The translations under genes were made by a program, and so were the position numbers. Below, piece after piece: positions 17 to 12,889 of a stretch of DNA of 20,811 bases; positions within the stretch are counted from its first letter, which is position 1; each line of letters starts with the position of its first letter. Location of the stretch: positions 4,212 to 25,022 of the IMG/VR virus record IMGVR_UViG_3300030116_002612. One strand, given 5' to 3'. Origin of the DNA: a virus. A model generated the notes under the pieces. The model ran no database searches. It was given only the letters and a program-made list of their open reading frames with translations, and was not told the origin of the DNA.

Positions 17-376
17 CTAAAGATAAAGTGGTGGTGGGTATCCTAAACCTCCTGCTTTAGCTTTACCCCACAATAAAAGTCTTATGTAGTGAAATGCTTT
101 TTCATCTTTGCCACCGATATGCCACATATCAATATCTTCTTTATCTAAACCATCAACTGGGTCGTAATTCTTTCCGTCTTTCCAGTTGTAAATTGTAGCA
201 ACTGTTTTGTCAGGAAATTCAAACACCCATTCGCATAGTATTTTTTTATCCAAACTCTCGCCCAAATGTTCTTTTCCAAACACTGAAACAAGTTTGTCAT
301 AGGATATATTTATATGCCCTTTGAAACTACATCCAAAGTCGTTATGAGTTGGTTTGATTCTGATTGCTGTCAACAT
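17..376 (-). CDS. Hypothetical 119-residue protein
   Basis: A complete small reading frame on the minus strand. An in-frame ATG also exists at 397, but the purine-rich ribosome binding site AAGGAGGAT lies at 391-383 inside that longer version, seven bases ahead of the ATG at 376, so I place the start at 376. The product is soluble, mixed alpha/beta, with many charged and aromatic residues and no signal peptide or membrane segment. It ends in a Gly/Pro-rich tail (GGLGYPPPLYL). I do not recognise the family and assign no function. It lies downstream of the 51-residue gene at 461-616, separated by a strong hairpin, and both probably belong to a leftward operon that diverges from the packaging genes. 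The codon pattern and ribosome site make it a believable gene. Confidence 0.75.
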   Translation of the reverse strand: MLTAIRIKPTHNDFGCSFKGHINISYDKLVSVFGKEHLGESLDKKILCEWVFEFPDKTVATIYNWKDGKNYDPVDGLDKEDIDMWHIGGKDEKAFHYIRLLLWGKAKAGGLGYPPPLYL

Positions 377-382
377 GATTAA

Positions 383-391
383 ATCCTCCTT
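383..391 (-). promoter_or_regulatory. Ribosome binding site that decides the start at 376
   Basis: On the minus strand this reads AAGGAGGAT, a near-perfect anti-Shine-Dalgarno match seven bases before the ATG at 376. The alternative ATG at 397 would place this site inside the coding region. Confidence 0.75.
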
Positions 392-401
392 CATCATGAT
401 T

Positions 402-451
402 ATTTTTTACTAAAACGGCAACGGTTGGAGGCTTGCGAAACCCCAACCGTT
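402..451 (-). promoter_or_regulatory. Intergenic hairpin plus conserved tail (copy 1)
   Basis: On the minus strand AACGGTTGG (451-443) pairs with CCAACCGTT (428-420). Inside, GGTTT and AAGCC form a second five-pair stem around a CGC loop, with one bulged T between the stems. One inner pair is G-U only when read on the minus strand, which supports that strand. After the stem comes CGTTTTAGTAAAAAAT (417-402), shared with copy 2. The U-rich tail is weak for a factor-independent terminator, so it could be a leaky terminator, a processing site or an mRNA-stabilising structure between the two minus-strand genes. Confidence 0.6.
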
Positions 452-460
452 ACAATCAAA

Positions 461-616
461 CTAAACTTTGTTAGTCTGAACTCTCTCACAGAACATACAT
501 TTAGTTTTTGCAGTTCCATCGTCCAACCTTTCAATGATTTCACTGACTGGGTGTGAACAATTGAATTGCTCCATTGTGAATTGTTCTGGGTGATTATTAA
601 CTATCCATGATGCCAT
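461..616 (-). CDS. Small putative zinc-binding protein, 51 residues
   Basis: ATG at 616, preceded four bases away by GGAGG (625-621), and stop TAG at 463-461. The 51-residue product begins MASWIVNNHPEQFTMEQF and carries Cys20-Ser-His22 and, eighteen residues later, Cys40-Met-Phe-Cys43. Four possible metal ligands in a CxH...CxxC arrangement suggest a small treble-clef or zinc-ribbon-like fold; such mini-proteins are common in phages but their roles vary (DNA or RNA binding, host takeover). There is no membrane segment. It is followed by a hairpin (451-420) and then the gene ending at 17, and is preceded by another hairpin (679-652), so it appears to be the first protein gene downstream of the leftward promoter at 1328-1357. 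Function unknown. Confidence 0.7.
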   Translation of the reverse strand: MASWIVNNHPEQFTMEQFNCSHPVSEIIERLDDGTAKTKCMFCERVQTNKV

Positions 617-632
617 GGTTCCTCCATTGCTA

Positions 633-679
633 ATTGTTTACTAAGACGAAACCAAGCGACAATTTGGAGGGTCGCTTGG
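633..679 (-). promoter_or_regulatory. Intergenic hairpin plus conserved tail (copy 2), possible terminator
   Basis: On the minus strand CCAAGCGAC (679-671) pairs perfectly with GTCGCTTGG (660-652) around a ten-base loop, followed by TTTCGTCTTAG. The tail CGTCTTAGTAAACAAT (648-633) matches the tail of copy 1 at 14 of 16 positions although the stem sequences are unrelated. It may end the putative leftward RNA starting near 1321, or act as a leader element of the gene at 461-616. The U-rich tail is interrupted, so termination would be imperfect. Confidence 0.55.
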
Positions 680-1321
680 CGTTGTCATTGATTCTATCGT
701 TTCGGATTATTAGTCTTTGCATTTAATCCAAGCGTTGCCACTTGGAACCATCCACCATCAATAGGTTCGGTTGCATTCCTGACTTTCACAGTTCATCAGC
801 TAGTAATTTTTTATGAAATAATCTAGTCTTCCAACGTTTCTGACTCTTCACAGATTTCTTAGGTTCTGAACTGCGTAATCCAATCGCATAGAGTAGTTTT
901 CCGATGTCAGTATTTTAGTCAATCTCAACCAGTGAAATATAAAAAATAGTGACTTGTTTAACATTCGATTATTTATTTGTAAGTGACTTTTTGCATTCTG
1001 TCACGATGTGGTTTCTCTGGCTCCCCGAACTCGACTCTCACGATTGGAGGCATCCCAGTTGACTACTTAGGCTCATTAAAGGATTTTAGGTATCAATCCT
1101 CTGGTAACTATCGATTCACCTTCCTCGGGATGAGTAGTCCCTTCCAGCAACCTGCGAGGTTCGGGGTCTGAGAGGTGAGCCTAAGCTACTTTGCTTTGAC
1201 CCCTCATCTTTGGTGTTCTACTCAACCTACTTACCGAACCCAACCTGTTTCAATCCTAGTGTATTTGTTGGGGCTTGCTAGCCCTAACTAACCTGAGATT
1301 TAACTTCATCAACTAACCACT
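652..1321 (-). ncRNA. Candidate large structured non-coding RNA
   Basis: This stretch of about 670 bases has no convincing gene on either strand. It is visibly richer in G and C (especially 1020-1285) than most of the surrounding AT-rich genome, and a near-consensus promoter at 1328-1357 fires leftward into it. Many stems can be drawn: 1267-1275/1280-1288, 1149-1153/1157-1161, 1080-1085/1095-1100, 1103-1107/1116-1120 (complete only on the minus strand because of a G-U pair), 727-732/741-746, and the long-range 1066-1075/1176-1185. The end is set tentatively at the hairpin 679-652. Size and phage context recall large ornate phage RNAs such as GOLLD or ROOL, but I cannot recognise either family from sequence. 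Alternatives are a long leader of the minus-strand operon or a cluster of regulatory elements. The strand is inferred from the promoter. Confidence 0.4.
1267..1288. other. Strong hairpin
   Basis: GTTGGGGCT (1267-1275) pairs with AGCCCTAAC (1280-1288) around the tetraloop TGCT. All nine pairs form on the plus strand (one G-U); on the minus strand one A-C mismatch interrupts the stem. No U-run follows on either strand, so it is not a standard terminator. It lies about 35-55 bases inside the putative leftward transcript. Confidence 0.55.
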
Positions 1322-1327
1322 AAAATC

Positions 1328-1357
1328 ATTCTAACACCATATAAAATAATATGTCAA
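1328..1357 (-). promoter_or_regulatory. Sigma-70-type promoter, leftward
   Basis: On the minus strand a perfect -35 box TTGACA (1357-1352) is followed after 18 bases by TAGAAT (1333-1328), five of six matches to the -10 consensus, in an AT-rich background. Transcription would begin near 1321 and run into the non-coding, hairpin-rich region and then the two small minus-strand genes. It diverges from terS. This is the best promoter I found in the window. Confidence 0.65.
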
Positions 1358-1425: not shown

Positions 1426-1944
1426 ATGACTATGAGCAGGAAAATACAATTAGATAATAAAAAGATAGATTTAATAAAGCAGGATATAGAACGGCTTGGA
1501 CTACACCCTACAAGTGCCATAATTAGACGCTGTGGGGTTTCTGAGTCTGTGGCTATGGGTTGGCTCCGTTTCGGTGAAAAAGTCCGTGTAACATTAGATA
1601 CAGAAACAGATACAGATACTATAGATACAGTAACAGTAACAGATACAAAGAACCTGAATCCCAGTGACAGATACAAGCAACTGACACTAAAACTTCATGA
1701 TACTGTTACAGAGGCTGTAACTGAGTTTGAGGCTTTGCAACTAACGGAATTAACGACTGCACAGAATGAGGCTGTTAAGAGTAAAAATAGCCAGTGGCTC
1801 CTGTCTAAAAAATACCCTGACAGATACGGTGACAATAAGAACCAGACGACAATAGACGACCAAGCAAACGCCCTAATCCAAGCATTAATAAATATAAATG
1901 TGCCAATCTCCGAAGATAAAAAGCCAATAGAGGACACGGCGTAA
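1426..1944 (+). CDS. terS: Terminase small subunit (probable)
   Basis: A 172-residue protein directly upstream of the large terminase. The N-terminal 55 residues look like a helix-turn-helix DNA-binding domain (IIRRCGVSESVAMGWLRFG around 37-55). Residues about 60-75 are a Thr/Asp/Val-rich low-complexity linker (TETDTDTIDTVTVTDTK). The next part resembles the oligomerisation region of small terminases, with SQWLLSKKYPDRYG near 122-135, a pattern typical of TerS. TerS rings bind the packaging site and hand the DNA to TerL. Two ATG codons, at 1426 and 1432, are possible starts; neither has a clear ribosome binding site, so the exact start is uncertain. A seven-pair hairpin overlaps the stop codon. 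The assignment rests on fold-like motifs and position. Confidence 0.75.
   Translation: MTMSRKIQLDNKKIDLIKQDIERLGLHPTSAIIRRCGVSESVAMGWLRFGEKVRVTLDTETDTDTIDTVTVTDTKNLNPSDRYKQLTLKLHDTVTEAVTEFEALQLTELTTAQNEAVKSKNSQWLLSKKYPDRYGDNKNQTTIDDQANALIQALININVPISEDKKPIEDTA
1596..1652 (+). repeat. ACAGATACA-type low-complexity repeat inside terS
   Basis: Near-tandem units of GATACA, ACAGATAC and ACAGTA encode the Thr/Asp/Val linker of the small terminase. The repeat sits between the DNA-binding and oligomerisation parts and has the look of replication slippage. Confidence 0.6.
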
Positions 1945-2338: not shown

Positions 2339-3748
2339 ATGATACATGAACAACGTGATGCCCTATTCAGTGCCATAGGTTACACACCTACGGCTGCACA
2401 GCTTGATATTCTCAATGATGATGCTAGATTCAAACTGGTTGCCGGTGGCGTGAGAGCAGGTAAGTCCAATCTTGGTGCTATGTATATGTTTGAGAAGATA
2501 ATGTCCAAGATTGTAGAAGACCCTGATGCTGCTTCGGGCAGTGTCTATTGGCTAGTAGCTGCTGATTACGAAAGAACTAGGGGTGAGTTTGACTATCTTG
2601 GAGATGCCTTCAACAGGCTAGGTGTAATTAAACGTGCCACGAGGCAGGTTGACCCCGGATACATCGAGGTGTCCGTTGGTTCTAAGAACCTAAAACCGTT
2701 GGTAATCAAGACTAAATCTGCGACTGACTACAGAAAACTTGCGATGGAAGCCCCGATGGGCATCGTTGCTTGTGAGGCTTCGCAGTTAGACCAAGAAAGT
2801 TATTGGCGATTGATGGAGAGAGTGGCAGAAAAGCGTGGTTGGGTATTCCTAGAAGGTACTTTTGAAGGTAGTCTAGGATGGTACCCCCAACAATTTACGT
2901 CATGGCAATCACCGGGTATACAAAATTTAGAGAGTGCAAAAAGTTTTTCACTACCTACATGGACTAATACGCATATATTTCCGTTGGGAGAGCACGACCC
3001 TGAAATAGAAAAGATGAGAAATGAGCATTCCGAGGAGTGGTTTAATGAACGTGTCGCCGGAATCCCGAGTCCTCCGAGTGGATTGGTGCATCCGTCATTC
3101 AATGTAAACGTTCATGTGAGAGAAGTTGAGTATGACCCAGACGAGATTGTGTATCTTGCAGTTGACCCGGGGTACTCAAGGATGACCGAAAGTGCGTATG
3201 CCGTTGAGGTGTGCCACATAATCGATGGGCAGGTGCAGGTATTTGACGAAATTTACGAGAGAGAATTGATTGCTTCCGACATTATCGAGGTAGCCAAGAA
3301 AAGATTTTGGTGGAATAACACGGATAAGTTTGGCGTGATTGACGTTGCAGGAAATGCACACGCTGGAGCCATGCCATCAAACACTGAGATATGGTTCAAA
3401 GAAGCAAATATAATTATGCAAAGCCAGCCCGTAAAGATTATTGACGGTATTGAGAGAATGAACAGTATGCTCAAGCCAGACCCAATAGACATGGAGCCCG
3501 GAATAGTCATTGACCCTACTTGCAAAGGACTGATTTCTGAACTTGGAGGAGGACCAAATCCGTTTGACGGACAGGTCAGAGTTTACAGTTGGCAGATGAA
3601 CCGAGAAGGTGGGGTAGTTGGAAATGTTCCGAGAGACAAGTATAATCATGCTGTAAAGGCATTAACTTATCTGATGGTAAATCAGTTTGGTTATGCCGGT
3701 AATGAAAACTATTCAAGGGAGATTATCCCAGTGACGAGATTTAGATAA
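2339..3748 (+). CDS. terL: Terminase large subunit (packaging ATPase and nuclease)
   Basis: A 469-residue protein with the order expected of TerL. The ATPase half has a Walker A loop GGVRAGKS at 36-43, a Walker B-like strand GIVACEAS at 141-148 (acidic Glu146) and a coupling-type motif FLEGTFEG at 170-177. The RNase H-like nuclease half starts with VYLAVDPGYS (Asp276) and continues with FGVIDVAGN (Asp335). At the C-terminus YNHAVKALTYL (435-445) occupies the place where an acidic third metal ligand is common. The frame extends upstream to 2207, but that part is a Cys/Val/Gly-rich translation of the GT-rich repeat tract; I chose the ATG at 2339, with 2330 as alternative. Neither has a good ribosome binding site. 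The stop overlaps the portal ATG (TAATG). TerL powers DNA entry through the portal and cuts the concatemer. Confidence 0.92.
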   Translation: MIHEQRDALFSAIGYTPTAAQLDILNDDARFKLVAGGVRAGKSNLGAMYMFEKIMSKIVEDPDAASGSVYWLVAADYERTRGEFDYLGDAFNRLGVIKRATRQVDPGYIEVSVGSKNLKPLVIKTKSATDYRKLAMEAPMGIVACEASQLDQESYWRLMERVAEKRGWVFLEGTFEGSLGWYPQQFTSWQSPGIQNLESAKSFSLPTWTNTHIFPLGEHDPEIEKMRNEHSEEWFNERVAGIPSPPSGLVHPSFNVNVHVREVEYDPDEIVYLAVDPGYSRMTESAYAVEVCHIIDGQVQVFDEIYERELIASDIIEVAKKRFWWNNTDKFGVIDVAGNAHAGAMPSNTEIWFKEANIIMQSQPVKIIDGIERMNSMLKPDPIDMEPGIVIDPTCKGLISELGGGPNPFDGQVRVYSWQMNREGGVVGNVPRDKYNHAVKALTYLMVNQFGYAGNENYSREIIPVTRFR

Positions 3749-12016: not shown

Positions 12017-12889
12017 ATGGCAACCACAGCAACTACTGGGAATTTAGAAAATGCCCAGAACATAATAATTACTGCTGCTAGGTTTACTGAAGAGCACAAT
12101 GCTCCTGCTATGGCTTTGATTGAGCAAATGAATTTGCCAAAAGGGGCTAAACAGGTAACTGTGCCAAAAGTAGGTCAAATGACTATTTCTGATTTACAAG
12201 ACGGATTCGACATTGTTGATGACGAAGAAATCGGAATGACAACTGTAGACCTCACTGCTTCAGAAGTCGGAGCAAAAGTAGTTTTGACAGATAAATTAAT
12301 CAGGCAATCTGCAAACAACATTTTTTCAATTGTAGGTAGACAGCTTGGTGATGCAATGGCAAGAAAAAAGGACACTGATGTCCACGCATTGTACTCAGGA
12401 TTAAACGGTGGTACTACTTTTGGTGCTGCTGGTGCAACAATGAGTCTTGCAAACATAGCAGGTGCAATCGCAAATGCTAAAGGACAAAAGTTTGGTTCGC
12501 AGATTTACATCTTGCAACACCCTTTTGCAACCTTTGACATTGCTAACACAGCAGTAACAGCAACAGGTGCAGCAGCCGGTATTCCGGATGGATTTGCAAC
12601 TGACTTGTTAAATAACTTCTTCTCAAACATTAGACCACTTAACGGTGTTCCAATCTTTGAAGATGGTAACTTGTCAGTTGACTCATCTGATGATGCAGTT
12701 GGAGTTATTGCAGACAAATCAGCACTAGGTGTACTTAAATCAGTAGACACTAGAACTGAAAGACAAAGAGATGCTTCAATGAGAGCAACTGAAATTATAA
12801 TTACAGCAGACTACGGTGTGTTTGAAATTGATGATTCAAAGGGTGCACCTTTGACATTTGATGCTTCAGCCCCTGCATCTGGTGCGTAA
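12017..12889 (+). CDS. Major capsid protein, HK97-like fold (probable)
   Basis: A 290-residue protein following the scaffold gene; GGAG (12003-12006) serves as ribosome binding site. The sequence starts with a helix (LENAQNIIITAARFTEEHNA), then beta-rich segments (KQVTVPKVGQMTISDL), a conserved-looking helix (VVLTDKLIRQSANNIFSIVG) and a Gly/Ala-rich core (ALYSGLNGGTTFGAAGATMS), followed by YILQHPFATFDI, NGVPIFEDGNL and a C-terminal strand region (EIIITADYGVFEIDD). The order N-arm, E-loop-like strands, spine helix and A-domain fits short HK97-fold capsid proteins of marine phages. There is no long propeptide, which agrees with a separate scaffold gene. It should be the most abundant virion protein. 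Confidence 0.88.
   Translation: MATTATTGNLENAQNIIITAARFTEEHNAPAMALIEQMNLPKGAKQVTVPKVGQMTISDLQDGFDIVDDEEIGMTTVDLTASEVGAKVVLTDKLIRQSANNIFSIVGRQLGDAMARKKDTDVHALYSGLNGGTTFGAAGATMSLANIAGAIANAKGQKFGSQIYILQHPFATFDIANTAVTATGAAAGIPDGFATDLLNNFFSNIRPLNGVPIFEDGNLSVDSSDDAVGVIADKSALGVLKSVDTRTERQRDASMRATEIIITADYGVFEIDDSKGAPLTFDASAPASGA

Follow-up and report, generated by a model that had tools for sequence, protein, structure and literature searches.

What is specified by a long stretch without a convincing gene, lying beside the terminase genes of a compact tailed phage? The locus belongs to a 25 kb IMG/VR virus record (IMGVR_UViG_3300030116_002612), of which positions 4212-25022, a stretch of 20,811 nucleotides referred to here as the window, were analysed. 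A first-pass annotation, made from the sequence alone, had proposed that about 650 bases on the minus strand are transcribed from a promoter into a large structured phage RNA. Our analyses support this proposal as largely right, with transcription being only inferred. The reading that we favour, to which we assign a probability of about 0.62, is a previously undescribed, stand-alone large structured phage RNA composed of two domains and heading an operon; conservation, promoter, covariation, folded strand, domain exchange and junction array are demonstrated, whereas its transcription, processing, action in trans and function are all inferences.

Promoter, coding content and distribution of the locus

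The window is part of a tailed-phage genome, as reflected by a large terminase (2339-3748), which matches large PHROG terminase families, and a major head protein (12017-12889). The RNA region is found on the minus strand between a divergent gene and a small gene of the leftward operon:

1426 to 1944, plus strand: divergent gene of 172 aa in the small-terminase position (named from its position; no family match)
1328 to 1357, minus strand: sigma-70-type promoter TTGACA-18-TAGAAT, which agrees with the consensus at 11 of 12 bases and has an extended -10 TG; predicted start at about 1321
461 to 616, minus strand: nearest gene downstream of the RNA; unknown product of 51 aa; GGAGG ribosome site

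The near-consensus promoter previously claimed at 1357-1328 of the minus strand was confirmed. Of the seven promoter-like sites in positions 1-2340 of the window, a total not exceeding that of shuffled sequences, this was the only one to score above 9/12, the other six scoring 9/12, and the record's first 6 kb contained no other such site. Furthermore, a TTGAC(A/T) -35 box occupies the same position in 13 of 13 distinct homologues. The claimed absence of a convincing ORF held as well: the RNA strand contains no ORF of at least 40 aa in the region, its longest open frame having 38 codons, and the open frames present in homologues are unrelated, none being common to them, even to close sisters. 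The preservation of a reading frame among homologues was specifically checked and not found, and the proposal was not refuted on this ground. A 121-codon ORF running through the RNA of two relatives (L003 and L020) is absent from their sister L041 and is probably due to chance. Structure was also supported, both by the covariation described below and by single-sequence folding, which was better than in dinucleotide shuffles, none of 20 reaching so low a value (z -2.57). The claim of raised GC failed, the value for the region (0.42) not being strikingly high.

Homologues were gathered by terminase search, by motif scan and by search with the neighbouring gene. Besides this record, 15 related IMG/VR contigs fully cover the locus, one of them as two adjoining pieces (L004 and L047), and all of them carry the element, i.e. 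promoter, RNA region and terminal hairpin; two further contigs (L002 and L013) are partial at the locus. Depending on the analysis, these provided 10-13 distinct sequences. The element measures 684-831 nt, and in every relative it neighbours the terminase genes and is divergent from them. No other viral contig with the element was identified at the sensitivity of the motif scans and model search used, and blastn against phage genomes returned only chance matches of 22-36 bp for the window and none for the relative L010. Its presence in all covering relatives and absence elsewhere therefore indicate that the element is constant in a single clade (terminase identity of at least 87%) and so far confined to it. 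Two sets of apparent hits were discarded as chance: a motif match in a Desantisbacteria genome (L209), located inside a 196-codon gene, and some 80 matches of a looser motif scan, nearly all of them within genes.

The model search detected no family member in terminase relatives at approximately 50% identity, despite their upstream ORF-free gaps. Such gaps, 0.5-1.7 kb in length and mostly AT-rich, are frequent upstream of the terminase in these phages (L059, L061, L067, L071, L075, L094 and L106). One of these phages (L071, positions 2440-2520, minus strand) includes, within a long ORF-free stretch, a core resembling a hammerhead ribozyme (CUGAUGAGUCCAAAAGGACGAAAC), on which Rfam is silent at gathering score. 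In the window itself, a G/T-rich low-complexity stretch with runs of GTGTCTGTGTCTG and GGTGG lies between the two terminase genes (2140-2300).

A conserved 3' domain with a covarying, pseudoknotted core

The promoter and the 3' part of the region are common to all homologues. The following features were assigned to this conserved part:

651 to 1004, minus strand: conserved 3' domain
983 to 1004, minus strand: opening hairpin of the 3' domain, GUGAC-AGAAUGCAAAAA-GUCAC, with a conserved GAAUGnnAAAA loop
774 to 785, minus strand: invariant motif AAGUCAGGAAUG, present even in the very diverged relative L024
718 to 775, minus strand: helix 1, 775-772 with 721-718 (UGCA/UGCA; UGAA/UUCA and UGCU/AGCA in relatives)
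747 to 771, minus strand: helix 2, 771-768 with 750-747
687 to 762, minus strand: helix 3, a pseudoknot, 762-757 (AUUGAU) with 692-687 (AUCAAU); GUGGG/CCCAC in relatives
727 to 746, minus strand: helix 4, a hairpin, 746-739 with 734-727, with a GCAA (GNRA) loop and a closing pair that is G-C, C-G or U-A

In the alignment of the 3' core (A3), 94% of the cells are paired under a five-helix structure, and 15 pairs have changed on both sides, compared with 0-6 in controls with slid partners; none of 500 column shuffles reached this figure. The stem of the opening hairpin (983-1004) likewise covaries (CUG/CAG, GAG/CUC, GUG/CAC). Because kinship among sequences inflates covariation counts, a blind helix scan of the 3' core alignment was evaluated against a null of tree-shuffled substitutions. 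The scan returned four helices containing 14 doubly compensated pairs, a count attained by none of 1000 null replicates (mean 1.7, maximum 10), and retrieved the helices that inspection by eye had first revealed, two of them interlocking as a pseudoknot. When the divergent sequence L017 was left out, the result was matched in 1 of 500 replicates, and no helix was detected in two stretches of the neighbouring coding gene scanned as a control. No single base pair was significant alone over all column pairs, as expected from only ten sequences. Covariation among homologues, whose absence had been named as grounds for refutation, is thus established. Moreover, paired positions contain 30 G-U cells and 2 A-C cells, and therefore the molecule that folds is the minus-strand RNA and not DNA.

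The diverged relative L024 fits the core weakly, as about 10% of shuffles yield a pseudoknot equal to its own, and the family model does not find it. Extension of the 3' core to this phage is possible, but only tentatively so.

An exchangeable 5' domain and a repeated junction element

The boundary between the two domains lies directly before the hairpin with the GAAUGnnAAAA loop. Upstream of it, the window carries one of several unrelated 5' domains, and the RNA ends in an element that recurs along the operon:

1008 to 1320, minus strand: type-W 5' domain, which can be exchanged; sister phages have unrelated sequence here
1315 to 1320, minus strand: 5' strand of P1, GUGGUU, first nucleotides of the RNA, pairing with the segment that immediately precedes the common hairpin
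1008 to 1013, minus strand: 3' strand of P1, AACCAC
651 to 680, minus strand: 3' terminal hairpin, with CCCUCC in its loop; it exists and covaries, and opens the series of gene-junction hairpins
638 to 649, minus strand: boundary motif UCGUCUUAGUAA after the hairpin, repeated at downstream gene junctions

Type W is common to the window, L039, L023/L021 and L002, type B occurs in L010, L005 and L007, and type C in L012, L011 and L013. Four relatives (L003, L020, L041 and L047) have the second half of type B after a different first half, while the 5' part of L024 differs from all of these. The window and L010 share 91% and 97% identity in the neighbouring genes and 84% in the final 210 bases of the RNA, whereas their 5' domains cannot be aligned and show no detectable similarity. 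In L039, a promoter matching that of L007, which has type B, precedes a type-W 5' domain. Unrelated 5' domains beside near-identical neighbours, together with the combination found in L039, are best read as the likely outcome of cassette exchange by recombination rather than of gradual drift. Searches for type-W 5' patterns elsewhere gave only chance matches.

P1 would make the 5' domain a closed unit. It represents the best partner segment in types W and B and in L017, but is weak in type C and is not chosen by single-sequence thermodynamic folding. In the type-B module, a blind helix scan was equalled in 3 of 1000 tree-shuffled replicates. A group I intron-like look of this module (GAGATAGTCC) was discarded because no Rfam intron model matched.

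At its other end the RNA is bounded in the same way as the genes that follow. The terminal hairpin formerly placed at 679-652 exists (680-651), but its reading as a unique terminator needed correction: it does not score as an intrinsic terminator and is one of 10-14 junction hairpins. The junction element consists, in order, of a hairpin, a few bases, the motif UCGUYUUAGUAA, a Shine-Dalgarno sequence and a start codon. Each record contains 10-14 copies of the motif, allowing no more than one mismatch, solely on the RNA strand, and a consensus of 65 copies, the core of which is fixed by the search pattern, revealed A-rich downstream flanks. Junction elements of the window are located at 417-455 and 638-680 (minus strand), and others occur in the leftward operon of L043, L045, L010, L024 and L050, the genes of this operon being small and mostly of unknown function. 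Since the hairpin at the RNA end is the first copy of the gene-junction element, the RNA is likely to be the first unit of the leftward operon. The junction element may be an RNA processing site, a weak terminator or a phage promoter; most of its hairpins have no U-tract and fail to score as intrinsic terminators. CCUCC in the hairpin was considered as an obligatory anti-Shine-Dalgarno and dropped, as many copies lack it. In L024 most copies of the motif read UAGU instead of UCGU, a concerted change which suggests that the motif might be read by a factor acting in trans.

These observations can be assembled into a putative mechanism. Starting at the strong promoter (1357-1328), host RNA polymerase would proceed leftward through an operon of small non-structural genes, of which the RNA would be the first unit. 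Since the 3' end of the RNA is marked by the junction element of the downstream genes, hairpin and UCGUYUUAGUAA, it would probably be released as a separate RNA of approximately 670 nt (up to 820 nt in relatives). The first and last bases of the 5' module would pair and so close it into a unit, and the 3' module, with its pseudoknotted core, would carry the common function. The 5' module, swappable as a cassette, would probably provide a variable binding or assembly surface; its exchange between near-identical phages fits a surface with a variable partner, the partner being inferred. A bolder, merely possible scenario is that the 5' half constitutes a rapidly exchanged specificity module (e.g. 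against a factor of the host or of a rival phage) attached to a constant 3' platform, and that the RNA is cut from a polycistronic transcript at a phage-specific UCGUYUUAGUAA signal which is read by a trans-acting factor and also separates the operon genes.

Alternative explanations and known RNA families

The most serious rival, which remains possible, is a very long cis-acting 5' leader operating on the polymerase or on its own mRNA, e.g. through processive antitermination past the junction hairpins. In its favour, the RNA heads an operon with 10-14 such hairpins on the same strand, and antitermination by RNA only is known in phage HK022 (PMC9378689). Known antitermination RNAs are, however, far shorter than the new RNA. 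As most junction hairpins are not intrinsic terminators, there may be nothing to antiterminate, and wholesale exchange of the 5' half would be unexpected for a cis element acting on a conserved RNA polymerase. The HK022 put RNA is similarly a structured RNA heading an early phage operon, but it is much smaller, and cis action of the new RNA is not established. We favour the stand-alone two-domain RNA over the leader, its function being inferred only.

That the element serves packaging together with the adjacent terminase genes, either as an RNA like the phi29 pRNA or as a packaging site, is very unlikely. The element adjoins the terminase genes, and is divergent from them, in every relative, but it matches no known packaging RNA family in Rfam, the terminase hits large PHROG families and not a phi29-type motor, and the 5' domain changes completely while the terminase stays 97% identical. 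A packaging site made of DNA is disfavoured by the 30 to 2 excess of G-U over A-C.

It is equally improbable that the element is a diverged member of GOLLD (or ROOL) missed by the Rfam models, in spite of its size class, its phage location and its conserved 3' and variable 5' halves, which in GOLLD fold as separate domains (PMC12286853). Rfam searches of the window and of relatives of each type, at gathering score and at E up to 10, returned no relevant match, in agreement with the first-pass annotation, which could name no family and suggested that the RNA may be new. The GOLLD model, whose gathering score is 150 bits, gave nothing better than stretches of 7.9-9.5 bits lying outside the RNA, and in control genomes it likewise produced weak matches below threshold; the ROOL model gave no match, one such search having been run without a positive control. 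No tRNA was found near the element in the stretches scanned. Finally, the idea of a decayed coding region or mobile element that folds by chance, for which open frames of up to 133 codons in individual RNAs (L003, L020) might speak, is all but excluded, being refuted by significant covariation and universal presence in the clade, with frames not common even to close sisters and no match to group I or II intron models.

The suggestion that size and setting fit the large ornate phage RNAs was supported by the length and domain layout of the element. Such RNAs, among them GOLLD and ROOL, occur in abundance and assemble into cages made only of RNA, that of GOLLD being a 14-mer nanocage, and their function is unknown. 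Like GOLLD (RF02032), the new RNA is large, phage-encoded and structured, with a conserved 3' and a variable 5' region, a layout confirmed here by comparison of the relatives. Unlike it, the new RNA does not match the GOLLD model, is shorter than the many GOLLD members exceeding 800 nt, and heads an operon beside terminase genes; GOLLD is located in phages or prophages, often near tRNA genes; the new RNA has a phage location, with no tRNA in the stretches scanned. It shares with ROOL (RF03087) a large size, a phage origin, a pseudoknot and an unknown function, but does not match the ROOL covariance model. The 5' and 3' regions of ROOL are intertwined and co-evolve, whereas the new RNA exchanges its 5' domain while the 3' domain stays. 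The junction element, in turn, recalls the start-associated sequences of cluster K mycobacteriophages, in which upstream inverted repeats are found (PMC3203893). That motif recurs within a single phage ahead of many of its start codons, and some copies are preceded by an inverted repeat. Both systems thus have a repeated motif and an upstream inverted repeat before start codons, but the sequence and the phages differ, and here the motif also bounds a large RNA.

An independent family would add to the large phage RNAs of unknown purpose. A constant 3' domain accompanied by at least four types of 5' domain in otherwise near-identical phages constitutes a natural domain-swap experiment, which allows one to ask which half assembles, what each half binds and whether diversifying selection acts on the 5' half. 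Given the small genome (approximately 37-38 kb) and an operon with a repeated junction signal, deletion and transcript mapping should be straightforward once the host is found.

Abundant large unclassified RNAs have also been reported in Vibrio phage ICP1 (approximately 800 nt) and Staphylococcus phage K (lnc001 and lnc002) (PMC7567579, PMC9241854). These resemble the new RNA in being phage-encoded, ORF-free, of similar size and outside the large-RNA families of Rfam, but they were detected as transcripts, whereas the new RNA is known only by comparison; the model of the new family finds nothing in them. The abundant ICP1 RNA (L210, positions 60-1130, minus strand) has no match among the large RNAs of Rfam, and therefore large phage RNAs outside Rfam do exist in cultured phages.
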